A stretch of DNA of 64,000 bases from Megasphaera micronuciformis F0359 (GCF_000165735.1 NZ_GL538209.1:1-64000); one strand, 5' to 3'. Numbered from the stretch's first letter, positions 16,793-48,098 are shown. Notes: generated by a model from the letters alone, not told the origin. Made by a program: numbers and translations.

Positions 16793-19700
16793 TTATTTGT
16801 TTAAAGAACCGTTAATGTGGACTCCGGGTATAAAGGGCAATACCGGTTTTTCCTCAGCTGCAGCTGACGGTTGGCGAATGCTCTCAAAGGTTGTTGTTAA
16901 CATGAGTTTCAATCGGTTTGTCTGATTGACTGCACTGGCACTGGGATCGTAGTCGATAGCTACAATATTCGTTTCGGGGAAAGCCGATTTCAAGGTCTTA
17001 ATCATACCCTTACCTGTTACATGATTGGGAAGACAAGCCCAAGGTTGCAGGCAAACGACATTTTTAGCACCCCTGTGGATAAGATCAATCATATCGCCTG
17101 TAAGGAACCAGCCTTCGCCGGCTACGTGGCCGAGAGACAGGTATTCTTTAGCTTCGTCGGCAATTTCGTAAATAGAGGTAACGGGGTCGAAACGTTTGCT
17201 GGCAGCGACGGCTTCAGCATAAGGCTTACGATACCAATCGAGAAGCTTGATTGCCGCTTTGCCGCCCAAGGCGGACCAGAATGAGCCGGACAAATATTTG
17301 TGTCGGAAATTGTTATCCAATAGACCGTAGTAGAAAAAGTCGGCTAAACCGGAAGTGACTATTTCTCCGCCTTCTTCCTCAATGAGTTTAATGATCTGGT
17401 TATTAGCTATAGGATGGAACTTAACGTAAATTTCTCCGACAATACCGATGCGGGGTTTTTTAATATCCTCCCAAATGGGGAGACTGTCAAAGTCCGCAAC
17501 AATTTGACGGATATTTTTTACGAACGTACTTCTGTCCGCCTTGTTCAAATCGACGGCCAGCTTTTCCTGCCATTTTTTAAAGAGACTTTCGGCTGCCCCG
17601 CGTACCTTTTCGTACGGCCGCGTGCGATACAATACTTGTTGCAATGTATCGCCGTAAATAACACCCTGTAAAAGTCTATGCCAGAAACCGAGAGACGGTT
17701 TAAAGCCCGGCTGTTCGTTTAATCCTTTCGTATTTAATGAAATGATAGGAATCTGGGGCATATTTGCGTCGGCTAAAGCCTTTCTCAACATACCGATATA
17801 GTTGGTAGCACGGCAGCAACCGCCTGTTTGGGAAATAATGACCGATGTGCGGTTCAAGTCGTATTTTCCCGATCTCAAGGCGGTCATTATCTGGCCGAGA
17901 GACATGATGGCCGGATAGCAGGCATCATTATGAATGAAGGAAAGTCCCGTATCGATAGCTTCTTGACCCTGGTGGGGCAAGAGTTCCATCTTGTAGCCTT
18001 CGTGTGCAAAGGCTGCTTTGAATAGAGGGAAATGAATAGGTGTCATTTCAGGGGCCAAGATAGTATGCGTTTTCTTGTCTTCCTTTGTAAAAACAGCCTT
18101 ATGATACGAATAAGGCTTGGTGTGTTCTACTCGAGTCATTTTGCGGTGATTCATGACGAATAACAAGGAACGCAAGCGAATGCGAATGGCTCCGAGATTG
18201 GAACCCTCGTCGATTTTTAACAACGTGTGGATTTTGTTGGCGTTTGCCAGAATTTCCTGTACCTGATCGGCAACGATAGAATCCAAGCCGCAACCGAAAG
18301 AGTTAAGTTCTACTAGCTCCAGGTTTTTATGTTCCGCTACATATTGGGCGGCCCTATACAAACGAGAGTGGTAGGACCATTGGTCGACAACGCGCAACGA
18401 ATCGGGTGCAGACCCCAAGGGAGCCACGCCGTCTTCTGTAAGGACGGCAAGACCGAGACTGTTAATGAGTTCGGGGATGCCGTGGTTGATTTCCGGATCC
18501 AGATGATAAGGACGCCCACTCAAGACGATGGCTCTGTCCCCGTCTTTTTCCAGTTTTTCCACTGTCTTTTTGGTTAATTCGTAATAGTCGGACTTGAACT
18601 TCTCTTCCTCATCCCAAGCTGCGTGGGCAGCTTTTTTGATATCATGGCCAGACAGACCCCAAGATTTTAGTTCCTCTGACAGTCTGGTTATAATTCGTTT
18701 TTTGTCGTGCAAAGGTAGGAACGGACTGATAAAAGGGGTCTGTGTAATTGCCAGACGTTCGTCCATATTGTGCTTAATTACTTCAGGATAAGACATGACC
18801 ATGGGACAATTGAAGTTGTTATCCTTACTGCCTTCGGCCGGTCCGTGTTGGATGCAGGGGTAGAAGATGCGATCCACCTTCTTTTCCAACAAGTTTTCAA
18901 TATGGCCGTGAACCAATTTAGCCGGATAACATGCCGAGTCTGACGGAATTGTATCCATCGCTTTCTGGAAGAGCTCCTTAGTGGACTGGTCGGATAAGAC
19001 GACTTCATAGCCTAGGTGTGTAAAGAAGGTAAACCAGAAAGGGTAATCTTCATACATGTTCAGGACCCGCGGAATTCCCACGGTGCCGCGAGGCGCTCCT
19101 TTTACGGGCTTGTAATGTGCAAAAAGGCGGTTGTATTTTACCTTGTATAAATCAGGCAAGTGTTTTACCTTTTTGGCCGAAGAACCGGCAGCACCGCGTT
19201 CACAGCGGTTACCGGTAATAAAGGAACGACCGTCGTTAAAGGTATTGACTGTAAGCAGGCAATTATTGGTACATAAGCCGCAATGGCGAATTGTCGTATC
19301 AATACGAAGAGAATCAATACCCGCTACATCCAATAGAGTAGAAGGTGCTGCATCTTCCTGATACGCTTGACGACAAATGAGACCCATGCCGTATGCACCC
19401 ATGAGGCCGGCAATTGCGGGACGAATGACCCGGCGACCCAAAAGTTGTTCAAAAGCACGTAATACGGCGTCGTTGTAGAAGGTGCCGCCTTGAACGACAA
19501 TGTGTTTTCCCAGTTTTGAAGGGTCTTTTACTTTAATAACCTTGTAGAGTGCATTTTTTATAATGGAGTAGGACAGGCCGGCTGAAATATCGGCCATGGT
19601 GGACCCCTCTTTTTGTGCCTGTTTTACCTTGGAGTTCATGAAGACTGTACAACGAGAACCCAAATCGATGGGTTCTTCCGCCAGTAAAGCTGCTTCGGAA

Positions 19701-21100
19701 AATTCTTGAATCGACTTGTTCAAGGACTTGGCAAACGTATCCAGGAAGGAACCGCAACCGGCAGAGCAAGCTTCGTTTAAAAGGATATCTTCGATATGGC
19801 CGTCTTTCAAACGGCAACATTTCATATCCTGGCCGCCAATGTCCAAAATGAAGTCCACGTCGGGGCAAAAATGAGCGGCAGCTTGATAATGGGCAATGGT
19901 TTCCACTTCGCCCAAATCAATACGGAGTGCTTCTTTTAAAAGAAACTCCCCATATCCCGTAATACCCGATTTGGCAATGAAAGCGCCTTCGGGCAGTCGG
20001 TTATAAATATCTTTAATGATAGATTTTGCAGCTTCTAAAGGACTGCCTTCATTATTCTGATAGTGAGAATAAAGAATCTCGCCCGTTTCGCCGATAACGA
20101 CAGCTTTAATCGTCGTAGAACCCGCATCGAGGCCGATATAGCAGGGACCCGTATAGGTCGATAAATCACCGAAAGGAACACAGGCCTGAGCATGACGAGC
20201 GCGGAAGGCTTCCAATTCTTCACGCGAGGTGAAGAGACGGTCAATACGGTCCGTTTTCGGTAACGATGAATCATCTACCTGTCGGATGCGGGCCATCAGA
20301 GACTGAAAGGACTGTGGCTTTTCTTCGAAGCTGCCCAAGGCCGCTCCGATAGCTACATATACCTGGGCATTTTCCGGAGCAATAACTTCTTCGGGTGTTA
20401 ATTCCAAGGTGTCGGCAAATTGTTTGCGAAGGCGGGGCAAAAAGGTCAGCGGACCGCCGAGAAAGCATACGGAACCCTTAATAGGTCTGCCGCAGGCAAG
20501 GCCCGTAATGGTTTGTAAAACAATGGATTGGAAAACGGAAGCGGCAATATTTTCCTTGCTGGCTCCTTCATTCAGCAGAGCCTGAACGTCCGTTTTAGCG
20601 AAAACGCCGCAACGTGCGGCAATAGGATAAAGCGTATCTGAATGCTCCGCCATTTCATTTAATCCCGCCGCATCAGTGTGTAAAAGCGTTGCCATTTGAT
20701 CAATAAAAGCACCGGTACCGCCGGCGCAGGCCCCGTTCATGCGGTGTTCGTTACCGCCTGTGAGATACGTGATTTTAGCATCTTCGCCGCCTAATTCAAT
20801 AATGACATCCGCCTGCGGATGATAGGTGCGAACGGATTTCGTACCGGCAATGACTTCCTGAATAAAAGGAATGTGCAAGTGGTCAGCCAAGGCCATACCG
20901 CCGGAACCGGTCATGGCAATAGAAATTTGCCGATCTCCGAAAACTTCATAGGCGTTTTCCAACAGGTCAAGCACTTTTTGTCGAATGTCTGTATAGTGAC
21001 GTACGTAACAGGCGTGAAGACACTGCTTTACGTTATTTAAGACGGCAATTTTAACGGTAGTAGACCCGATATCAATGCCGATGTGCAATAAGTCTTTCAT
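16793..21100 (-). CDS. Giant 2-hydroxyacyl-CoA dehydratase activase-type protein (tandem BadF/BcrA ATPases + DUF2229)
   Basis: This 1435-residue protein starts at the ATG at 21100 behind GGAG; an upstream in-frame ATG lacks a site. It has two ASKHA-type BadF/BadG/BcrA/BcrD domains: the first begins IGIDIGSTTVKIAV (residues about 6-19) and has the cluster motif NGACAGGTGAFID near 138; the second begins YIGLDAGSTTIKAVV near 323, with DIGGQDMKC and NEACSAGCGSFLD. These resemble the activator of 2-hydroxyglutaryl-CoA dehydratase, whose bridging [4Fe-4S] cluster uses such cysteines. The C-terminal two-thirds is the DUF2229/CoA-dehydratase-related region with many cysteines (GLCTNNCLLT, SACYPAKLVHGH, YPCIQHG, NDACYPA, CCRATNYIG). 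It probably couples ATP hydrolysis to a low-potential electron transfer; the partner is unknown and no dehydratase gene is adjacent. Confidence 0.9.
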   Translation of the reverse strand: MKDLLHIGIDIGSTTVKIAVLNNVKQCLHACYVRHYTDIRQKVLDLLENAYEVFGDRQISIAMTGSGGMALADHLHIPFIQEVIAGTKSVRTYHPQADVIIELGGEDAKITYLTGGNEHRMNGACAGGTGAFIDQMATLLHTDAAGLNEMAEHSDTLYPIAARCGVFAKTDVQALLNEGASKENIAASVFQSIVLQTITGLACGRPIKGSVCFLGGPLTFLPRLRKQFADTLELTPEEVIAPENAQVYVAIGAALGSFEEKPQSFQSLMARIRQVDDSSLPKTDRIDRLFTSREELEAFRARHAQACVPFGDLSTYTGPCYIGLDAGSTTIKAVVIGETGEILYSHYQNNEGSPLEAAKSIIKDIYNRLPEGAFIAKSGITGYGEFLLKEALRIDLGEVETIAHYQAAAHFCPDVDFILDIGGQDMKCCRLKDGHIEDILLNEACSAGCGSFLDTFAKSLNKSIQEFSEAALLAEEPIDLGSRCTVFMNSKVKQAQKEGSTMADISAGLSYSIIKNALYKVIKVKDPSKLGKHIVVQGGTFYNDAVLRAFEQLLGRRVIRPAIAGLMGAYGMGLICRQAYQEDAAPSTLLDVAGIDSLRIDTTIRHCGLCTNNCLLTVNTFNDGRSFITGNRCERGAAGSSAKKVKHLPDLYKVKYNRLFAHYKPVKGAPRGTVGIPRVLNMYEDYPFWFTFFTHLGYEVVLSDQSTKELFQKAMDTIPSDSACYPAKLVHGHIENLLEKKVDRIFYPCIQHGPAEGSKDNNFNCPMVMSYPEVIKHNMDERLAITQTPFISPFLPLHDKKRIITRLSEELKSWGLSGHDIKKAAHAAWDEEEKFKSDYYELTKKTVEKLEKDGDRAIVLSGRPYHLDPEINHGIPELINSLGLAVLTEDGVAPLGSAPDSLRVVDQWSYHSRLYRAAQYVAEHKNLELVELNSFGCGLDSIVADQVQEILANANKIHTLLKIDEGSNLGAIRIRLRSLLFVMNHRKMTRVEHTKPYSYHKAVFTKEDKKTHTILAPEMTPIHFPLFKAAFAHEGYKMELLPHQGQEAIDTGLSFIHNDACYPAIMSLGQIMTALRSGKYDLNRTSVIISQTGGCCRATNYIGMLRKALADANMPQIPIISLNTKGLNEQPGFKPSLGFWHRLLQGVIYGDTLQQVLYRTRPYEKVRGAAESLFKKWQEKLAVDLNKADRSTFVKNIRQIVADFDSLPIWEDIKKPRIGIVGEIYVKFHPIANNQIIKLIEEEGGEIVTSGLADFFYYGLLDNNFRHKYLSGSFWSALGGKAAIKLLDWYRKPYAEAVAASKRFDPVTSIYEIADEAKEYLSLGHVAGEGWFLTGDMIDLIHRGAKNVVCLQPWACLPNHVTGKGMIKTLKSAFPETNIVAIDYDPSASAVNQTNRLKLMLTTTFESIRQPSAAAEEKPVLPFIPGVHINGSLNK

Positions 21101-21128
21101 GAAAATCTCCTGTAATAAATTTGAATCG

Positions 21129-21171
21129 GACCATAAAGAATACAATAATAGTATAAATTAGGCTTATGGTC
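21129..21171. promoter_or_regulatory. Inverted repeat in the activase promoter region
   Basis: GACCATAA (21129-21136) and TTATGGTC (21164-21171) are perfect 8-base arms separated by 27 bases that include a minus-strand TATACT (21150-21155). The arms flank a likely -10 element of the activase gene, as an operator would. The regulator is unknown. Confidence 0.4.
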
Positions 21172-22476: not shown

Positions 22477-22553
22477 GGCGGGTATGGTGAAGTGGTTAAC
22501 ACGGCGGATTGTGGCTCCGTTATTCAAGGGTTCGATCCCCTTTACTCGCCCCA
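22477..22553 (+). tRNA. tRNA-His (anticodon GTG)
   Basis: The acceptor GCGGGTA (22478-22484) pairs with TACTCGC, with the extra 5' G(-1) at 22477 opposite C73, the identity element of tRNA-His. Anticodon loop TTGTGGC carries GTG at 22511-22513. The T arm has GTTCGAT. CCA is encoded (22551-22553). Confidence 0.95.
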
Positions 22554-22554
22554 T

Positions 22555-22629
22555 AGGGGTATAGCCAAGTGGTAAGGCACCGGACTTTGACTCCGCTATG
22601 CGCTGGTTCGAATCCAGCTACCCCTGCCA
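22555..22629 (+). tRNA. tRNA-Gln (anticodon TTG)
   Basis: Acceptor AGGGGTA (22555-22561) pairs with TACCCCT (22619-22625), G73, and an encoded CCA ends at 22629. Anticodon loop CTTTGAC gives TTG. One base separates it from tRNA-His. Confidence 0.95.
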
Positions 22630-22634
22630 AGTAT

Positions 22635-22710
22635 GATCCACTAGCTCAGTCGGTAGAGCACCTGACTTTTAATCAGGGTGTCCCGAGTTCGAATCTCGGG
22701 TGGATCACCA
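22635..22710 (+). tRNA. tRNA-Lys (anticodon TTT)
   Basis: Acceptor GATCCAC (22635-22641) pairs with GTGGATC. The anticodon stem CCTGA/TCAGG closes loop CTTTTAA with TTT. A73 and an encoded CCA end at 22710. Confidence 0.95.
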
Positions 22711-40094: not shown

Positions 40095-40147
40095 GCACAT
40101 AACGGTATATGTGTAGCTTATGAATAGACGGGGAATGTGTGCTGACG

Positions 40148-40176
40148 ATGACAGCAGGCTTTCTGTTTGGTATACT
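40148..40176 (+). promoter_or_regulatory. Promoter of the CpXC gene
   Basis: ATGACA (40148-40153), 17-base spacer, TATACT (40171-40176) preceded by TGG. It lies inside the longest open frame, which supports the downstream ATG at 40228 as the true start. Confidence 0.6.
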
Positions 40177-40227
40177 GGGCGTACGGGAAACATGGCGGAA
40201 TACGAGCCGAAGAAAGAGGGGAAGATA

Positions 40228-41019
40228 ATGGGTATTGAAAAAACGGAAACCTATACGCAAACACGCGAATTGCCACTAAATTGTCCGGCTTGCAGTGCGG
40301 CCGGCACGACCATAATATATGAGAAAATTGACGGAACGACACAAATGAGGGACAGAATTCTTACAGACAGCAATTTGTTTATGTATGAATGTCCGCATTG
40401 CGGTGAACGGGTGCGCATAGAAGCTCCTTGCATTTATGTGGATGAAAAACGGAAAATCGCCGTCTGGAATATGCCTGATCCGAAGTTTGAATTTACGGAA
40501 CAAGCTTTGGCTGAAAAAATCGGTAATTGGGACATAAGTGATTATACATGTCGCATTACGCGCAGCTGGGGGGAATTGAGGGAAAAGATTATCGAACTTG
40601 AGAGCTCGGTAGACGATCGCATTTGTGAGGTCATCAAAAGCGGTGCTTACAGTTTGATTAAGGCTGAAGATCGTAAAGTGTTACCTCTTGAGTCGTATCA
40701 TATAGATTATTGCACACAAGAAGGAGATAGTCGGGCTATCGGATTAGTATTTATGCGATCCGATATGGGTGGACAAGCGTATGTATATCCCTTGACGGAT
40801 CGGGTAATACAGGTAACGGACGACATCTTCCGACCTTTGCTGGACGGGCTGGACTTATATAATCGTCGCGGCGAGTTTTTCCGGTTTACTTATGAAACGG
40901 CACACAATTTTGTTATGCAAACGACTGAGGCGGCACAAGAACAAAATAAGAAATATGAAGAACTCATCAGCCTGTGGGTGAAGACCTTGGCTAAAGAACT
41001 ATATCATGTCGACTTGTAA
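40228..41019 (+). CDS. CpXC-domain zinc-binding protein
   Basis: A 263-residue protein. Residues about 18-90 are a CpXC domain: NCPACSAAG at 18-26 and ECPHCGERVRIEAPCIYVDEKRKIAVW at 52-78, with the CPxC pairs and the conserved P-x-x-Y-x-D segment. The rest is an alpha-rich region of unknown function. The start is set by AGAGGGGAAG at 40215-40223; earlier in-frame ATGs lie before the promoter. CpXC proteins have two zinc-binding CPxC motifs and their role is not established. It is a single gene followed by a terminator. Confidence 0.85.
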   Translation: MGIEKTETYTQTRELPLNCPACSAAGTTIIYEKIDGTTQMRDRILTDSNLFMYECPHCGERVRIEAPCIYVDEKRKIAVWNMPDPKFEFTEQALAEKIGNWDISDYTCRITRSWGELREKIIELESSVDDRICEVIKSGAYSLIKAEDRKVLPLESYHIDYCTQEGDSRAIGLVFMRSDMGGQAYVYPLTDRVIQVTDDIFRPLLDGLDLYNRRGEFFRFTYETAHNFVMQTTEAAQEQNKKYEELISLWVKTLAKELYHVDL

Positions 41020-41078: not shown

Positions 41079-41203
41079 ATGCTGTAGACGTATAAAAAGG
41101 TCTTAGCGTATGTATAAAGCGGTGGGGTTCTTTCGTCGCCCTGCGTAAGGATATATAATCAAGATATATAGTTCTGTTGATAAATAATTATAGGAGAACG
41201 GGT

Positions 41204-44200
41204 ATGAATGCATACACTCTTTCAAATTTGACGGATATGGTTAAAGAAGGCTTGCATACAAGACGATTTTTAAAACAAATCAATCTTACGGCAGAAGCCT
41301 TGGACCGTATTATTACACGAACTTCTGTAGATGAGGCCGTTGCGGAAGTCGCATTCATGACAAATGAAGACGGTCGTTTTAGAACCGAGGCCGTACCGGG
41401 TGTTTTAAAGCGGCATATACCGGTGCTGGTAAACGAGCCGTCATGCGGTTGGTTAAAATATTGTTATTACTATATACTGGCCCGTATTTATCCGGAAAAT
41501 GTGGCTTATTGGACAGACGATCACATTGAAACGGTGCTGTCTCGAGATGATGAGTACGGATTGGGACGTGCCGTTGTGTTGCAGATTTTGCGTAGCCTAT
41601 ATAGATTTGAACGCCGATATCTTCCGTTTTCTCCTTTACGGGAAATGAGATTTTTGTCGCCGGAAGAGATTATAGAAAACGGCTTTAGTGAAGAATATCT
41701 GAAACTTCGCGACATCAGTACGGAGTATTATATTTATGAATTTATGCGTATCGGCTATGCCATTACCCCTTACGATACACTGGGACATATAGGAGGGGTG
41801 CATTATGTGGCTGTATACGCGGCACGGCAACTTTTTGCCGCCGGGGTGCCCGTTGATGTAGCCATTGTATCCGGAGCGGCAGCTGTACATGACATAGGAA
41901 AGTACGGGTCCAAGAAGAGCGAAGAACGCAGAGTTCCGTACCTGCACTATTTTTATACGGATCTTTGTTGTCGCCGTGTAGGTATCCCCGAAATCGGTCA
42001 TATTGCGGCAAACCACTCTGTTTGGGATTTGGAACTGGAAAACTTGCCGGTTGAGGCGTTGTTATTAATTTATGCTGATTTTCGCGTTAAAAGTCGGCGA
42101 GAAAACGGTCGTGAAAAAGTTTGTTTCTATACATTAAAAGAAGCTTTTGATGTTATTTTGCAAAAGCTGGATAATGTAGACGAGGCTAAAAAGCATCGCT
42201 ATCAAAGAGTGTACGAGAAGTTGGCCGACTTTGAACAATATATGACTATGTCCGGTGTCAATACGGTTTTACCTGATGATTTTTCCGATTGGCCGGCCAG
42301 TCCGGGAAAACGTGAGAATGAGGAGCCTGTGTTGCAGGAAGGGGAATCGGTCGTTCGCGCTTTGACCTATACGGCTATTGATCACAATATCCGTATGATG
42401 CGTCTTTTCCAAAAAGGGAATGAGTTTTCACGTTTTTTGGAAGGGGCTCGCAGTGAGCGCAGTTGGAAGAATGTACGTAATTACATAAGTACGCTTGAAG
42501 AGTATTTTACATATATGACGGAGCGCCAGAAAACGATTACACTGCAATTTCTTTATGAAATTTTGTCGTATCAGGATGTAGACATTCGTATGCAGGCTGC
42601 CAGATTGATGGGAAATATTGTCGCGACTTTTGAAGAAAAGTATCGAAAGGAAATTCCCGAAGGCGTTACTTTACCCCCCAGAGAGGTAACCAGTGCCGGC
42701 CTTTTCGCACATTACATGTCGCTAATCGTAAAGCCCGGCTGGCGTTTTACGCAGCAACATCGGAACTGGATTTCCTACTGCCTGGGAGAATTTGTGCAAA
42801 GTGCCTTACAATATTGTGATGAAGATGAGCGCCGGGAATATTTGGATATTTTACAACGATACTATAGCCGCACGAACTATCAAAGTGAGATTTTCATTGT
42901 CTTGCTTACTGCCTTGAATCGCGCTGATATTATACAGGGTGCAACGGGATTTATTGAAACCTTGGGGACTTTTATCGAAGCGGCTTTGAGTCATGCCGAT
43001 TTAAATGTACGCGTTGCGGCTTTGCGTTGCAAAGCCACTCTGGTAGATGCGTATGATGAGGAGATGTACTTTGCCGACTTGTTGAAGACCTTGAGACTTT
43101 CGGCTAATGAGGCGGACTTAAATGAAGAATCGGGGGCTCTTTTTCTGGACAATTTGAAGATGAGCACTCACTGGGTCATTAAGGCCGCTAATATAGAGAT
43201 TCTTTTACACTTTTTACAAATGACACATCAGCCGAGCAGCGTTATGCACTTGGGCACGCATTTAGCCAATGTTTTGAAAGTCAGCGAAAGTTGTTTCGTT
43301 AGAGCCGCCGCCGGTGCGGCTTTGTTGCGAGTTGCCTCCCATATGACGTTTACACAACGCAATGAAATTGCCGTGGAACTGTTTAACGGTCTCGAATTGG
43401 GAGATTTGCGCATATCAAAGTATGTTCCCGAATATTTAGGCCGGCTTGTATTACAACTGTCGCCGAGCGAAGTGGATGAATTTATCGGTAATATTGAAAA
43501 TCAAATTGTAACGGCCACGACTCATGTAGCCGCCTCAATGGTTCATACGGTGGGTGTCATGGTCGGCAATTTTCAGGAATTTGCCGAACGCTTTCCCCAG
43601 GAAGAAATTCGAAACGAGAGTCGGAAACGGCGATTACTGTATATCATGATTAAGACATATGCGCACTTTAACAGGGAACTGAGTCGCGATGCCTTTAGAC
43701 AAATGGGGCGGTTTATCTTTGCCAACCCTGTCTTGTCTTTGGATGAAGTGGATTTTTTCTTTTCTCATGCGTATAAGAAATTGCTCGTCTTATTGTCTGA
43801 GCAACGAGAAGAGGCTCTCGATTTTTATAACAATGCGGCAGTGCTTAATCACATTTATCGCTATATCGGGATTCATCGATTGGAACGGGAACGTTTTGAT
43901 TTTGCCCCACCTCGCAAGGTGTGCTTTTATCCGGGAACCTTCGATCCTTTCAGCCTGGGCCATAAAGCGATTGCCATTCAGATTCGAGATTTGGGCTTTG
44001 ACGTGTATTTGGCACTTGATGAATTTTCTTGGTCGAAGCATACACAGCCGCGCTTGATGCGAAGGAAGATTATGAATATGTCCGTTGCCGATAAAGAGCA
44101 TATTTACCCCTTCCCCGACGATATTTCTATCAATATGGCTAACCCGTCCGACCTGAAGAGGTTGAAAGAAATTTTTGCGGGTCGCGAACTGTACTTGGCT

Positions 44201-46027
44201 GTCGGTACGGACGTTATAGAAAATGCGTCGGCATACAGAAATGAGCCGTCGGAACACTCAGTTCACACATTGAATCATATTGCTTTTGAGCGGGAGACAA
44301 GAGACGGAAAATACGATCCCGAATCGTTTTGTCATCCCGTACAGGGAGACTTAATCACCTTAAAGCTGGATAAGTTTTATGAGGATATCAGCTCTACGCG
44401 TATTCGTGAGAACATCGACTTAAATCGGGATATATCGAATCTTATCGATGCGGTGGCACAGCAGTTTATTTATGAAAATAATTTATATTTACGTGAACCG
44501 GCATACAAGCACGTTTTTGATGCAAAGAACATGGATATAAGCCTCTTTGAAACGCATCAAAAGAGTGAAGAGATGCCGTCTGCAGGAGAATTGAATGCCG
44601 CAGGCTACGACGGTATGTGTGTTTCATCCTATGTTTGCCGTGATGATGTTCGTTCTTTGTATATAGAGTGGACCGAAAAGGAACGACAAGTCATCGCTTA
44701 TGCGGCGGCTCATCATGTGGGTATTCGTGAATTGCACACCGAATTCGGTGATACGGATATTGCGTCTCGCATCCGTGAGGCTGCGGAAGGATCCGTTGCG
44801 TCCATCGGCTTCCTTTATACCCGGATGGCGGTTGCAGCGGGAGATATTCGGGAAATTCTTATTACGGAGCTGATGACCGCTCTTATTGCCCAAGATTATG
44901 CATATGCCTTGTATCACCCTGTTGATGCGGTCGGCGGCTACGGGGATGAAGCGATGATTGAGGCCTTGCAAGACAGAGGATTTCAGAATATTGCCCCGCC
45001 CGGAGCCGATCCGGTATATGCCGTCAGCCTGAAGAGTCCCGTGGTTCTTTTTAGAGATGTGGAAACTGTTTTGAAAAATCCGTTTAACAAGAACCTTACG
45101 GTATTACAGGCTTTGGATAAGGCTCATGAACGGTTGCTGGAAACCATGCGACGCATTTATCCGGGAAAGCTTATTCTTTCCTTTACCCCGAGCGTTGTAC
45201 ACAAAAAGATTATTAATGAGGCCGTGCGCTTGAACGGGGTTTCCGCAGTAAATGACGGTAAACGACGTTACGGTCCGTACATGTCCGTACCCTTCGGTAA
45301 GACCTTAAGTGATGTCTTAATACCCAATACGGTAACGAAGGCTTTACACATAGAAAAGTATTTTGAACGGTCTGTGCGAGGTTTTAAAATGGCGGAATCA
45401 CGGTACTATTCGTCTGTAATAAATCAGGTAAAGACTATCCGCTCCTTTAATCGGCCGGTGATGTTGATTGACGATTTATTACATAAGGGTTATCGCATGC
45501 GTATGCTCGTTCCTTATTTAGAGGAATGCGGAATCGATATTAAGGCCGTCTTAACAGGTGTAATGACAGGTCGGGCGGCCGATATGATGAGTGAATGGGG
45601 AATACGGGCTGAGTGTGCTTACTTTCTGCCTACTCTGGAGGTATGGCTGAATGAACGCGACTGTTATCCTTTCTTAGGGGGCGACAGTATTATGCAGGCT
45701 GACGGAAGCGGCGATGACAATCCGTTCATCAATCTTGTCTTGCCTTATGTAAAACCCGGATTTATCGGTAAGGGGGATGACGAGGCCGTATACCGGTATT
45801 CGCTCACTTGCCTGAAAAATGCACTGCACATTATGGAAACTTTGCAGGAGACATATCAGCAGACATTTGAAAGACGCCTAACTTTGAAACGTCTGGGTGA
45901 GGTGGTTTCACCCTTGCGCATTCCCGATATGAACCCCGGAGTAATCTTTGATAAGAGTATGAATCCGTCACGGTTTATAGAAAATGATATTGAACAATTA
46001 CTAAGATTTCGATGGAAAAATTCGTAG
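41204..46027 (+). CDS. Giant multidomain protein: HD domain, HEAT-like repeats, NMNAT-like, GNAT-like and PRTase-like domains
   Basis: A 1607-residue protein, ATG behind GGAG at 41193-41196. From the N-terminus: an HD phosphohydrolase-like domain (about 190-300; GHIGGVHYVAV with His200, AAVHDIGKYG with His229-Asp230, ANHSVWD with His271, YADFR); helical HEAT-like repeats (about 400-880); a nucleotidyltransferase domain of the NadD/cytidylyltransferase superfamily with FYPGTFDPFSLGHKA (about 908-922, the TxGH-like loop) and EDISSTRIREN (about 1060-1070, the ISSTxIR loop); a GNAT-like segment (about 1140-1265); and a phosphoribosyltransferase-like domain with VMLIDDLLHKGYRMRMLV (about 1419-1436). 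This looks like nucleotide or cofactor chemistry in a single chain. It is the first gene of three in one run. Function unknown. Confidence 0.85.
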   Translation: MNAYTLSNLTDMVKEGLHTRRFLKQINLTAEALDRIITRTSVDEAVAEVAFMTNEDGRFRTEAVPGVLKRHIPVLVNEPSCGWLKYCYYYILARIYPENVAYWTDDHIETVLSRDDEYGLGRAVVLQILRSLYRFERRYLPFSPLREMRFLSPEEIIENGFSEEYLKLRDISTEYYIYEFMRIGYAITPYDTLGHIGGVHYVAVYAARQLFAAGVPVDVAIVSGAAAVHDIGKYGSKKSEERRVPYLHYFYTDLCCRRVGIPEIGHIAANHSVWDLELENLPVEALLLIYADFRVKSRRENGREKVCFYTLKEAFDVILQKLDNVDEAKKHRYQRVYEKLADFEQYMTMSGVNTVLPDDFSDWPASPGKRENEEPVLQEGESVVRALTYTAIDHNIRMMRLFQKGNEFSRFLEGARSERSWKNVRNYISTLEEYFTYMTERQKTITLQFLYEILSYQDVDIRMQAARLMGNIVATFEEKYRKEIPEGVTLPPREVTSAGLFAHYMSLIVKPGWRFTQQHRNWISYCLGEFVQSALQYCDEDERREYLDILQRYYSRTNYQSEIFIVLLTALNRADIIQGATGFIETLGTFIEAALSHADLNVRVAALRCKATLVDAYDEEMYFADLLKTLRLSANEADLNEESGALFLDNLKMSTHWVIKAANIEILLHFLQMTHQPSSVMHLGTHLANVLKVSESCFVRAAAGAALLRVASHMTFTQRNEIAVELFNGLELGDLRISKYVPEYLGRLVLQLSPSEVDEFIGNIENQIVTATTHVAASMVHTVGVMVGNFQEFAERFPQEEIRNESRKRRLLYIMIKTYAHFNRELSRDAFRQMGRFIFANPVLSLDEVDFFFSHAYKKLLVLLSEQREEALDFYNNAAVLNHIYRYIGIHRLERERFDFAPPRKVCFYPGTFDPFSLGHKAIAIQIRDLGFDVYLALDEFSWSKHTQPRLMRRKIMNMSVADKEHIYPFPDDISINMANPSDLKRLKEIFAGRELYLAVGTDVIENASAYRNEPSEHSVHTLNHIAFERETRDGKYDPESFCHPVQGDLITLKLDKFYEDISSTRIRENIDLNRDISNLIDAVAQQFIYENNLYLREPAYKHVFDAKNMDISLFETHQKSEEMPSAGELNAAGYDGMCVSSYVCRDDVRSLYIEWTEKERQVIAYAAAHHVGIRELHTEFGDTDIASRIREAAEGSVASIGFLYTRMAVAAGDIREILITELMTALIAQDYAYALYHPVDAVGGYGDEAMIEALQDRGFQNIAPPGADPVYAVSLKSPVVLFRDVETVLKNPFNKNLTVLQALDKAHERLLETMRRIYPGKLILSFTPSVVHKKIINEAVRLNGVSAVNDGKRRYGPYMSVPFGKTLSDVLIPNTVTKALHIEKYFERSVRGFKMAESRYYSSVINQVKTIRSFNRPVMLIDDLLHKGYRMRMLVPYLEECGIDIKAVLTGVMTGRAADMMSEWGIRAECAYFLPTLEVWLNERDCYPFLGGDSIMQADGSGDDNPFINLVLPYVKPGFIGKGDDEAVYRYSLTCLKNALHIMETLQETYQQTFERRLTLKRLGEVVSPLRIPDMNPGVIFDKSMNPSRFIENDIEQLLRFRWKNS

Positions 46028-46048
46028 GTTCTAAATAGGAGATATATC

Positions 46049-47014
46049 ATGTATATTCATGATTTACCAAAGGAAGCGGGCATTCTTAAGACTATAGACT
46101 TAGTTGCGTTTCAAATGCCGCAACGGCGTTTGAAAGTAAATATTGCGGCTCTCGGTGATGTAGGGACTACTATGCTGACAGGTCTGCGCCTTTTAGGCGG
46201 AGATTGTCTTGACCGATGCGGTATGTATGACATTAACAAGGCCAATCTGGAACGGCTGGAAATGGAGATGAATCAAATCATTTATCCTGACGGGTCTGTG
46301 CGGGTGCCGCCCGTTGAAATTGTGACGGAAGAGACACTCTTTGATTGTGATGTCTTTATCTTTTGTGCTACTAAGGCTGTGCCGCCGGTAAGTGTCGGAG
46401 GGGATGTGCGCATGGCCCAGTACGAAGCAAACAAAGGATTGGTGAAGCATTTTGCTTGTTTAGCTCGCGAACGAAAATTCTCCGGGCTGACCTGCATCGT
46501 GTCGGATCCCGTGGATCCGTTATGTCGAGTGTTTTTAAAAGAAGCGGCAGTGCCGCCCGGATATGTGCAAGGATTCGGCTTGGGAGTGATGTACGGACGA
46601 GCCTTGTATTATGCTGAAAAAAACGGTATAGGTGAAAGATTTAAAGCCGAGGGGCGCGTATACGGGCCGCACGGGGCCGATTTAGTCGTAGCCGACAGTT
46701 TGAAGGATTATGATGACGAACTTTCTCGACAGTTAACGGAGAGGGTCGTAACGGCTAATCTTGTTGTCCGTGATTTGGGCTACAAACCGTATATTGCCCC
46801 GGCCTTGTCATCAGCGGCACTGTCTATTCTTTATGCCTTACGCGGACAATGGCATTACGGTTCAGTGTGGTTGGGAGATGAAGAACGGGGGGCATTTATG
46901 GGGGTGCGAAACAGATTTATCTCCGGACATATAGAGTATGAAGACCCGGATCTTCCCGATGACTTGTATAGGCGGATTTGTAAGGCTTACTTGACCCTTT
47001 GCACTTTGTCGTAA
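46049..47014 (+). CDS. LDH/MDH-like NAD-dependent dehydrogenase, atypical
   Basis: A 321-residue Rossmann protein. The nucleotide-binding loop is VNIAALGDVGTTMLTGLRLLGG (about 30-51; a G-x-V-G variant of the lactate/malate dehydrogenase loop). SDPVDPLCRVF (about 151-161) corresponds to the NPVD motif of that family and YGPHGADLVVADS (about 207-219) to the GEHGD catalytic-histidine motif. The second half is all-alpha/beta like the LDH catalytic domain. It differs enough from LDH and MDH that the substrate cannot be assigned. AGGAGA precedes the ATG and it starts 21 bases after the giant gene, so it belongs to the same operon. Confidence 0.82.
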   Translation: MYIHDLPKEAGILKTIDLVAFQMPQRRLKVNIAALGDVGTTMLTGLRLLGGDCLDRCGMYDINKANLERLEMEMNQIIYPDGSVRVPPVEIVTEETLFDCDVFIFCATKAVPPVSVGGDVRMAQYEANKGLVKHFACLARERKFSGLTCIVSDPVDPLCRVFLKEAAVPPGYVQGFGLGVMYGRALYYAEKNGIGERFKAEGRVYGPHGADLVVADSLKDYDDELSRQLTERVVTANLVVRDLGYKPYIAPALSSAALSILYALRGQWHYGSVWLGDEERGAFMGVRNRFISGHIEYEDPDLPDDLYRRICKAYLTLCTLS

Positions 47015-47030
47015 AAAGGACGGTGATATC

Positions 47031-48098
47031 ATGTACATCATCCGATTACAAGGCGGTGACGAAACGGTACGCAGGCGTCAGGATGAGGCTTTAAAACAAG
47101 CGTTGGTCGGACACAAGTATATCCGGACGGAGACCCCGGAAGAGTTGCAGGACTTAACGGGGCGCTTAGAGGGGAGTGCGTGTCTGTTTGTCATAGCATT
47201 GGGTGCAGGCGGTTATAATGAGGCATACAGAAAACTCGTTGCCGTATTATACGAAAACAAGACCTTGTTGGCAGGTGTTCGTGGCGGCATTCTTGTTGAC
47301 GGACCCGATGAATTATTTACTAAAAAGACGGCACGTGAGTTGTTATTTATAGCTAATCGTGCCGGTTGCATCTTTCCCGGTACCCCGCTTGTAGAAGGCA
47401 CGGGATCATTATATAATTTTACTGTTCGTGCCCGCATCAGAAAGGTTTCCAAGAAAGAGGCCTATATACTTGCCGTTTGCGATCTGGTAGAAAAGCTGTC
47501 CGGCCCCTTACCGCAACAGCCTGAAACAACGAGGCTTCTTGTCGTGCATGCGAGCCGGCATTCCACATCAAACACCTTACTTTTATGGGAAATGGTGAAA
47601 AAAAATTTGACGGCAGCGACGTGTGTAGAAGAAATCTCCCTCCTTGACGGGGAACTGATTGATTGTCGCGGGTGTGCTTACGAAATGTGTTTGCATTACG
47701 GGGAGCAGAGTGCCTGCTTTTACGGCGGGCATATGGTGGAATCCGTATATCCGGCTTTGAAACGATGCAATGCCCTTCTGCTCGCATGTCCCAATTACAA
47801 TGATGCCGTGGGAGCTAATATGGCGGCCTTTTTTAATCGTCTGACGGCACTGTTTCGTTCCGAATACGATAATTTTGCGGCAAAGCGCTTGTATGCTCTG
47901 GTAGTTTCCGGTTATAGCGGCGGGGACATTGTGGCTGAGCAAATCGCCTCAACCATGTGTCTTAACAAAAATTTCATGTTACCGCCGTATTTTGCCCTCG
48001 TTGAGACGGCACACGAACCGAAGAGCATTCTTGCGTGTGAAAAGATAGAAGAAAAGGCACGCCTAATGGCTTCTCATATAGAAGGAAAGTATAAATAG
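47031..48098 (+). CDS. NADPH-dependent FMN reductase-like flavoprotein with Cys motif
   Basis: A 355-residue protein. The C-terminal 200 residues carry a flavodoxin-like FMN fold: LLVVHASRHSTSNTLLLWEMV (about 165-185, phosphate loop), then LIDCRGCAYEMCLHYGEQSACFYG (about 207-230, a Cys-rich CxxCxxxxC...C motif as in iron-sulfur flavoproteins), and LLLACPNYNDAVGANMAAFFNRL (about 250-272, flavin site). The N-terminal 150 residues (RLQGGDETVRRRQDEALKQ...) form another alpha/beta domain I do not recognise. It follows the dehydrogenase by 16 bases and completes the three-gene operon. A cluster or flavin could shuttle electrons to the dehydrogenase. This is inference. Confidence 0.82.
   Translation: MYIIRLQGGDETVRRRQDEALKQALVGHKYIRTETPEELQDLTGRLEGSACLFVIALGAGGYNEAYRKLVAVLYENKTLLAGVRGGILVDGPDELFTKKTARELLFIANRAGCIFPGTPLVEGTGSLYNFTVRARIRKVSKKEAYILAVCDLVEKLSGPLPQQPETTRLLVVHASRHSTSNTLLLWEMVKKNLTAATCVEEISLLDGELIDCRGCAYEMCLHYGEQSACFYGGHMVESVYPALKRCNALLLACPNYNDAVGANMAAFFNRLTALFRSEYDNFAAKRLYALVVSGYSGGDIVAEQIASTMCLNKNFMLPPYFALVETAHEPKSILACEKIEEKARLMASHIEGKYK

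Follow-up and report, generated by a model that had tools for sequence, protein, structure and literature searches.

The window, the whole stretch of 64,000 nucleotides that was analysed, belongs to the 1.76 Mb draft genome of Megasphaera micronuciformis F0359. Three open reading frames, A, B and C, were confirmed on its plus strand, separated by intergenic gaps of 21 and 16 bp. The ORF calls agree with the original prediction, which had placed a three-gene system at 41204-48098.

41204..46027, plus strand: gene A, 1607 aa, with HD, HEAT, NadD-like nucleotidyltransferase, GNAT-fold and PRTase-like parts and with colinear orthologues
46049..47014, plus strand: gene B, 321 aa, an LDH/MDH-fold NAD-binding protein (Pfam Ldh_1_N)
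47031..48098, plus strand: gene C, 355 aa, a two-part protein with a C-terminal FMN_red/Isf-like flavodoxin fold and the Cys motif CX2CX4CX8C

An AGGAGA ribosome site precedes the ATG of A at 41204. A TTG at 41177 would give a longer ORF and is the less likely start. Pfam identified a cytidylyltransferase-like domain (1e-8) and a sub-threshold HD domain in A, and an NCBIfam search of A, B and C returned no model at its cut-off. A CpXC zinc-ribbon protein is encoded upstream of A (40120-41019). It is kept in Colibacter (L004) and present as fragments in Anaeroglobus (L002), and was not found to be kept in the wider A family. Elsewhere in the window, a protein of 1450 aa with tandem repeats resembling 2-hydroxyacyl-CoA dehydratase activators (BadF-type) is encoded at 16793-21145, and three tRNA genes are clustered at 22478-22707.

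The nearest named relatives of this genome are Anaeroglobus geminatus (A 69% identical) and Colibacter massiliensis (A 68%). End-to-end colinear A proteins occur in the Negativicutes Megasphaera, Anaeroglobus, Colibacter and Acidaminococcus, in the Clostridia Eubacterium pyruvativorans and Acetoanaerobium, and in several MAGs. The lowest identity, 31%, was that of Acetoanaerobium noterae, in which the A-B-C order is unchanged. In Anaeroglobus geminatus a frame change near residue 1498 (L002 12485-12502) breaks the A gene into ORFs of 1498 and 103 aa, and a second copy of this genome (G235/L014) has the identical break. Sampling was even over species, and the counts of A are prevalences within the sampled collection. 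Full-length A was identified in 18/300 Negativicutes genomes, the remaining matches of that search being ordinary NadDs, in 32/391 sampled Clostridia and in 133/247 genomes of the Eubacterium pyruvativorans order, with a few fragments at contig ends among the last two counts. A was found in 6/348 genomes of the phylum sample.

In the 247 genomes of the E. pyruvativorans order, A and C occur together in 125, A alone in 8, some of which have A at a contig end, and C alone in 0 (Fisher p 1.7e-61, by a test that ignores phylogeny). In the window's family, A and C are present in the identical 11/17 genomes. All three genes were called at 38 loci, where they always share a strand and mostly lie <100 bp apart. 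Pairwise identities correlate across loci (A/B 0.75, A/C 0.86, B/C 0.69). Two complete-looking loci from two lineages, G778 and G802, keep A and truly lack B and C. A-B-C is a conserved operon of real genes, inherited as a unit; a lack of co-inheritance would have refuted the original prediction, and co-inheritance is seen in both the order and the family.

AlphaFold (AF2) models of A were made in two halves, with 52-59 homologues. The features of A are as follows.

41771..42238, plus strand: HD phosphohydrolase domain, residues 190-345, with ligands H195, H229-D230 and D292 plus the invariant H271
42464..43843, plus strand: HEAT-type alpha solenoid, residues about 421-880, by Pfam HEAT, AF2 and Foldseek
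43913..44503, plus strand: nucleotidyltransferase domain, residues 904-1100, with PGTFDPFSLGHK, SWSKHTQP..RR, GTDVI..Y and ISSTRIR
44516..45067, plus strand: GNAT-topology domain, residues 1105-1288, no acetyl-CoA loop, by AF2 element order
45071..45733, plus strand: type I PRTase-like domain, residues 1290-1510, with the altered PRPP loop DDLLHKGYR
45734..46024, plus strand: helical C-terminal segment, residues 1511-1607, by AF2

The N half (pLDDT 89, pTM 0.88) comprises the HD domain followed by an all-helical alpha solenoid. Pfam HD matches 23/52 members, and the window's own A scores 19.2-20.0, slightly under the cut-off of 22. None of the members examined, whether type I proteins or the type II paralogues encoded without B and C, has lost any of the ligands H195, H229, D230 and D292, and the HD domain has 34 invariant positions. 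The H...HD...D metal ligands in a helical domain identify A as a member of the HD phosphohydrolase superfamily. Pfam HEAT matches 27/52 members, and the top solved-structure matches of the N half in Foldseek are HEAT/ARM solenoids. A 460-residue HEAT solenoid is unusual in a pure metabolic enzyme and commoner among protein-binding scaffolds. Between Negativicutes and clostridial type I proteins, identity is 57% in the HD domain, 51% in the nucleotidyltransferase, 30% in HEAT and 22% in the GNAT fold. No other domain of A is as conserved as HD and the nucleotidyltransferase.

The C half (pLDDT 85.8, pTM 0.83) begins with the nucleotidyltransferase. Pfam CTP_transf_like matches 59/59 members, and the nearest structure is NadD (E 2e-8, target TM 0.65-0.81). 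The motifs PGTFDPF(S/T)x(G/S)H, SWSKxT and ISSTxIR are kept, varying slightly, in type I members, and Ser or Thr takes the place of the first His of HxGH. By its fold and its GxFDPxxxGH and ISSTxIR-type motifs, A belongs to the NadD/CoaD superfamily. On the NadD model TIGR00482 it scores 36.9 bits (protein) or 42.3 bits (genomic match) against a curated cut-off of 112.45, and the true NadD of the same genome scores 198.7 bits. That NadD is encoded elsewhere in a separate, canonical nadD-yqeK pair of overlapping genes. A was therefore ruled out as a NadD replacement, and its presence in addition to nadD-yqeK indicates that A has another job.

In E. coli NadD, H45 and W117 stack the nicotinate ring and Y118 binds it (PMC8035330). 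An alignment of A with 11 true NadDs found the SYTxDT segment absent from A, Tyr in place of the nicotinate-stacking Trp, and SWSK in place of PPHK. Since the pyridine pocket is not kept, nicotinate mononucleotide is, judging from the aligned residues, very unlikely as a substrate, and a nicotinate/NMN specificity is not supported. L134 and L135 have coaBC immediately upstream of A, which prompted a look at CoaD-like phosphopantetheine specificity. This candidate was rejected, as the structural nearest neighbours are NadDs and coaBC adjoins A only in the L134/L135 group and G657. The coaBC genes (L134 4750-5952, L135 10978-12207) are on the same strand as A, and both genomes lack B and C.

The remaining domains are less conserved. 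AlphaFold places GNAT secondary-structure elements in order in residues 1105-1288, the least conserved part of A with 4 invariant of 184 positions. A GNAT profile match was looked for in this segment and none was found, and the (R/Q)xxGx(G/A) acetyl-CoA loop is not present in the alignment of 45 members. The GNAT-fold domain is probably structural. The PRTase-like domain has weak matches to NCBIfam APRT-type (adenine/hypoxanthine PRTase) models in up to 30/47 members (best 1.8e-5), and Pfam Pribosyltran matches 7/59. The profile match to PRTases is confined to the PRPP-motif region, where the acidic pair is kept and a KGxR loop replaces TGxT in nearly all members. Because the TGxT phosphate loop is replaced, PRTase catalysis may be lost. 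Among the Foldseek matches listed for the C half there were NadDs only, and no structure match for the GNAT-fold or PRTase-like domain. Failure of the domain calls on structure prediction was the other stated ground for refuting the original prediction. Of these calls, HD, HEAT, NadD-like and PRTase-like are supported by structure prediction; the GNAT-like segment holds as a predicted topology, and an active acetyltransferase is not supported.

Two known systems resemble A. NadD and YqeK are fused in mycoplasmas and encoded by adjacent genes in many Gram-positives; one makes a dinucleotide and the other hydrolyses it. Fused to NadD, the HD hydrolase YqeK acts as a proofreader of NAD synthesis (PMC9426524). 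A likewise couples a NadD-type nucleotidyltransferase to an HD phosphohydrolase, and differs in its N-terminal HD domain, its additional HEAT, GNAT-fold and PRTase-like domains, the absence of a conserved nicotinate pocket and scores under NadD cut-offs. The earlier suggestion that a nucleotide-like group is made and removed fits the conserved HD and nucleotidyltransferase sites. GlnD joins nucleotidyltransferase and HD eraser activities (PMC4285133), and A likewise combines a nucleotidyl writer and an HD eraser in one chain. The nucleotidyltransferase fold of GlnD differs and its target is PII, whereas A has PRTase-like and HEAT domains and no ACT sensor domains. Neither a Pol-beta type nucleotidyltransferase nor ACT domains were matched in A by Pfam or NCBIfam.

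The GlnD precedent and a solenoid suited to protein binding favour reversible protein modification. A would nucleotidylate a target protein, which might be B, C or a metabolic enzyme; the HEAT solenoid would bind that target, and the HD domain would remove the group, as GlnD does on PII. The known substrates of NadD-superfamily domains are small phosphorylated molecules and not proteins, and the differing fold of GlnD weakens the parallel. No target was identified, and the PRTase-like domain is left unexplained. We consider this explanation unlikely, even with the support it gains from the type II loci.

At 13 loci an A-type gene occurs without B and C; most of these genes are additional copies in genomes with A-B-C. 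An APH-family kinase gene adjoins A in 12/13 of these loci. It is convergent with the A paralogue in L107, L109, L111, L113 and L122, divergent in L092, L095 and L144, and codirectional in L139, L141, L142 and L143; three orientations indicate that the adjacency has survived rearrangement. The kinase was not found in any A-B-C locus fetched. It has the Brenner-type HxDxxxxN and DFE motifs of APH-family kinases and differs from them in its link to an A-type protein. The nucleotidyltransferase motifs are degenerate in 7/7 type II proteins compared, L139-L144 having been checked for the kinase only. Identity of type II proteins falls to 37-40% in the nucleotidyltransferase domain and stays at 61-64% in HD. 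In type II, the adjoining kinase would take over as writer from the decayed nucleotidyltransferase and the HD eraser would stay. Protein modification accommodates this as the same cycle run with phosphate, the swap keeping the eraser. This kinase-linked second class, missed by the original prediction, limits the possible readings of A. A kinase next to a decayed nucleotidyltransferase is also a direct genetic handle, as both writers should share related targets, whose modification is expected to be reversed by the HD domain common to both classes.

B has profile matches to solved LDH-family structures and scores under the LDH model cut-offs. Like L-lactate/malate dehydrogenases it keeps a Rossmann NAD-binding domain, the substrate Arg pair and the active-site His, the equivalents of LDH Arg109, Arg171 and His195 being R121, R184 and H208 (invariant in 42/42). 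It differs from them in that the catalytic Asp168-His195 pair is incomplete: Asp168 is replaced by Met181, and Asn140 by Asp153, in 42/42. The family fold of an LDH/MDH-like dehydrogenase, as first described, stands, and an ordinary dehydrogenase is not supported. An Asp ending the second Rossmann strand (36/42) favours NAD over NADP as the predicted cofactor, and the fixed Asp to Met substitution argues for a putative changed reaction rather than decay.

C matches Pfam FMN_red (5.8e-15). Its four Cys (CX2CX4CX8C) are invariant in 40/40 and its FMN-loop residues are kept or nearly so, confirming the description of an FMN-reductase-like protein with a Cys-rich motif. C has in common with Isf the FMN_red fold, four clustered Cys and an anaerobic distribution. 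The published Isf motif is CX2CX2CX5-7C (PMC3164229), and C differs both in this spacing and in an extra N-terminal half of ~160 aa.

An NAD-binding LDH fold with altered catalysis next to a flavoprotein also suggests NAD(H) damage repair. B would recognise an aberrant nicotinamide dinucleotide, C would oxidise or reduce it, and A would hydrolyse and rebuild it with its HD and NadD-like domains, for which YqeK is a precedent (PMC9426524). We regard this as quite improbable, as A has not kept NadD's pyridine-binding residues and is absent from most Clostridia and Negativicutes sampled, though NAD damage is universal.

Besides B and C, no third conserved neighbour of A was found among the loci examined, nor any neighbour that names a substrate. 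The lineage-specific neighbours of A-B-C include phosphotransacetylase, PPDK with a regulatory protein, glutamate dehydrogenase, a split glutamate synthase and ribU. In the Megasphaera relatives L003, L005, L007 and L009, the genes immediately upstream of A encode pyruvate phosphate dikinase, a CBS-HTH regulator and the regulatory protein of PPDK. In the window, L002 and L004, C is followed by a phosphotransacetylase gene. A split archaeal-type glutamate synthase of three ORFs lies between A and B in L087 (9588-13236) and L089 (14540-17946); in both, the opposite strand carries an ammonium-transporter-like gene. A riboswitch directly before A was looked for in the window and 52 other loci, and none was found. 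In L053 an FMN riboswitch (546-665) precedes a ribU-like gene, which in turn is the gene directly before A; the position of this gene matches L087 2102-2707, and a ribU-like gene is also near A in L089 and L055. A phage origin of A-B-C was rejected, with no matches in phage records or PHROGs, as was a defence origin, A, B and C having no match in PADLOC.

Several of these neighbours belong to central metabolism (phosphotransacetylase, PPDK with its regulator, glutamate dehydrogenase), and this counts in favour of a regulatory sensor scaffold. A would then be a non-catalytic binder of PRPP, NAD(H) or adenylates through which B and C or central fermentation enzymes are controlled. The altered PRPP loop, the GNAT fold without a CoA loop and the large HEAT scaffold are consistent with such a role. 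The neighbours are lineage specific, however, and the HD metal ligands and nucleotidyltransferase catalytic motifs are among the most conserved residues, as expected of catalysis. We give this explanation a small chance of being correct.

Tentatively, and somewhat short of even confidence, we prefer to read A-B-C as a dedicated small-molecule pathway of anaerobes, in which A is a writer-plus-eraser for a nucleotide-linked small molecule. It is ranked first because NadD-superfamily enzymes use small phosphorylated molecules and the PRTase-like domain fits. From the architecture, the conservation of sites, the operon, its co-inheritance and the kinase swap we infer the following reactions and substrates. 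The NadD-type domain would attach a nucleotide, probably the AMP of ATP, to a phosphorylated small molecule, probably ribosylated and other than nicotinate mononucleotide. The PRTase-like domain would supply or sense the ribose-phosphate partner. By analogy with YqeK beside NadD, the HD domain may hydrolyse the product or wrong products. The HEAT solenoid may hold together the catalytic domains, or B and C. B, as an NAD-binding LDH-fold protein, and C, as a predicted Fe-S flavoprotein, would perform or use a linked redox step. The altered PRPP loop, the lost first His of HxGH, the size of the HEAT solenoid, the two loci without B and C (G778, G802), the lack of a substrate-naming neighbour other than B and C and the absence of a riboswitch directly before A in the loci scanned count against this small-molecule reading. 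It is conceivable, and on balance doubtful, that anaerobic Firmicutes use A-B-C to produce and recycle a nucleotide-linked cofactor or signal that has so far gone unrecognised. It would be assembled from a ribose-phosphate donor and ATP on a single HEAT-scaffolded enzyme, with type II as a parallel kinase-based version.

The architecture was not found in Pfam, NCBIfam, PADLOC, PHROGs, PDB sequence or fold searches or the open-access literature, in keeping with the original view that no function had been described for this domain combination. The novelty is the architecture and the gene unit, the proposed function aside. A co-inherited unit with intact catalytic residues over deep divergence suggests that it serves some step in anaerobic life, metabolic or regulatory. 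Its hosts are amino-acid and organic-acid fermenting anaerobes, many of them from gut and sediment, and the step is unnamed by the annotation libraries searched. Should the product prove to be a new dinucleotide, biochemistry would gain a cofactor or signal. Should it instead be a mark on a protein, A would be, to our knowledge, the first writer of NadD-type fold to act on proteins.
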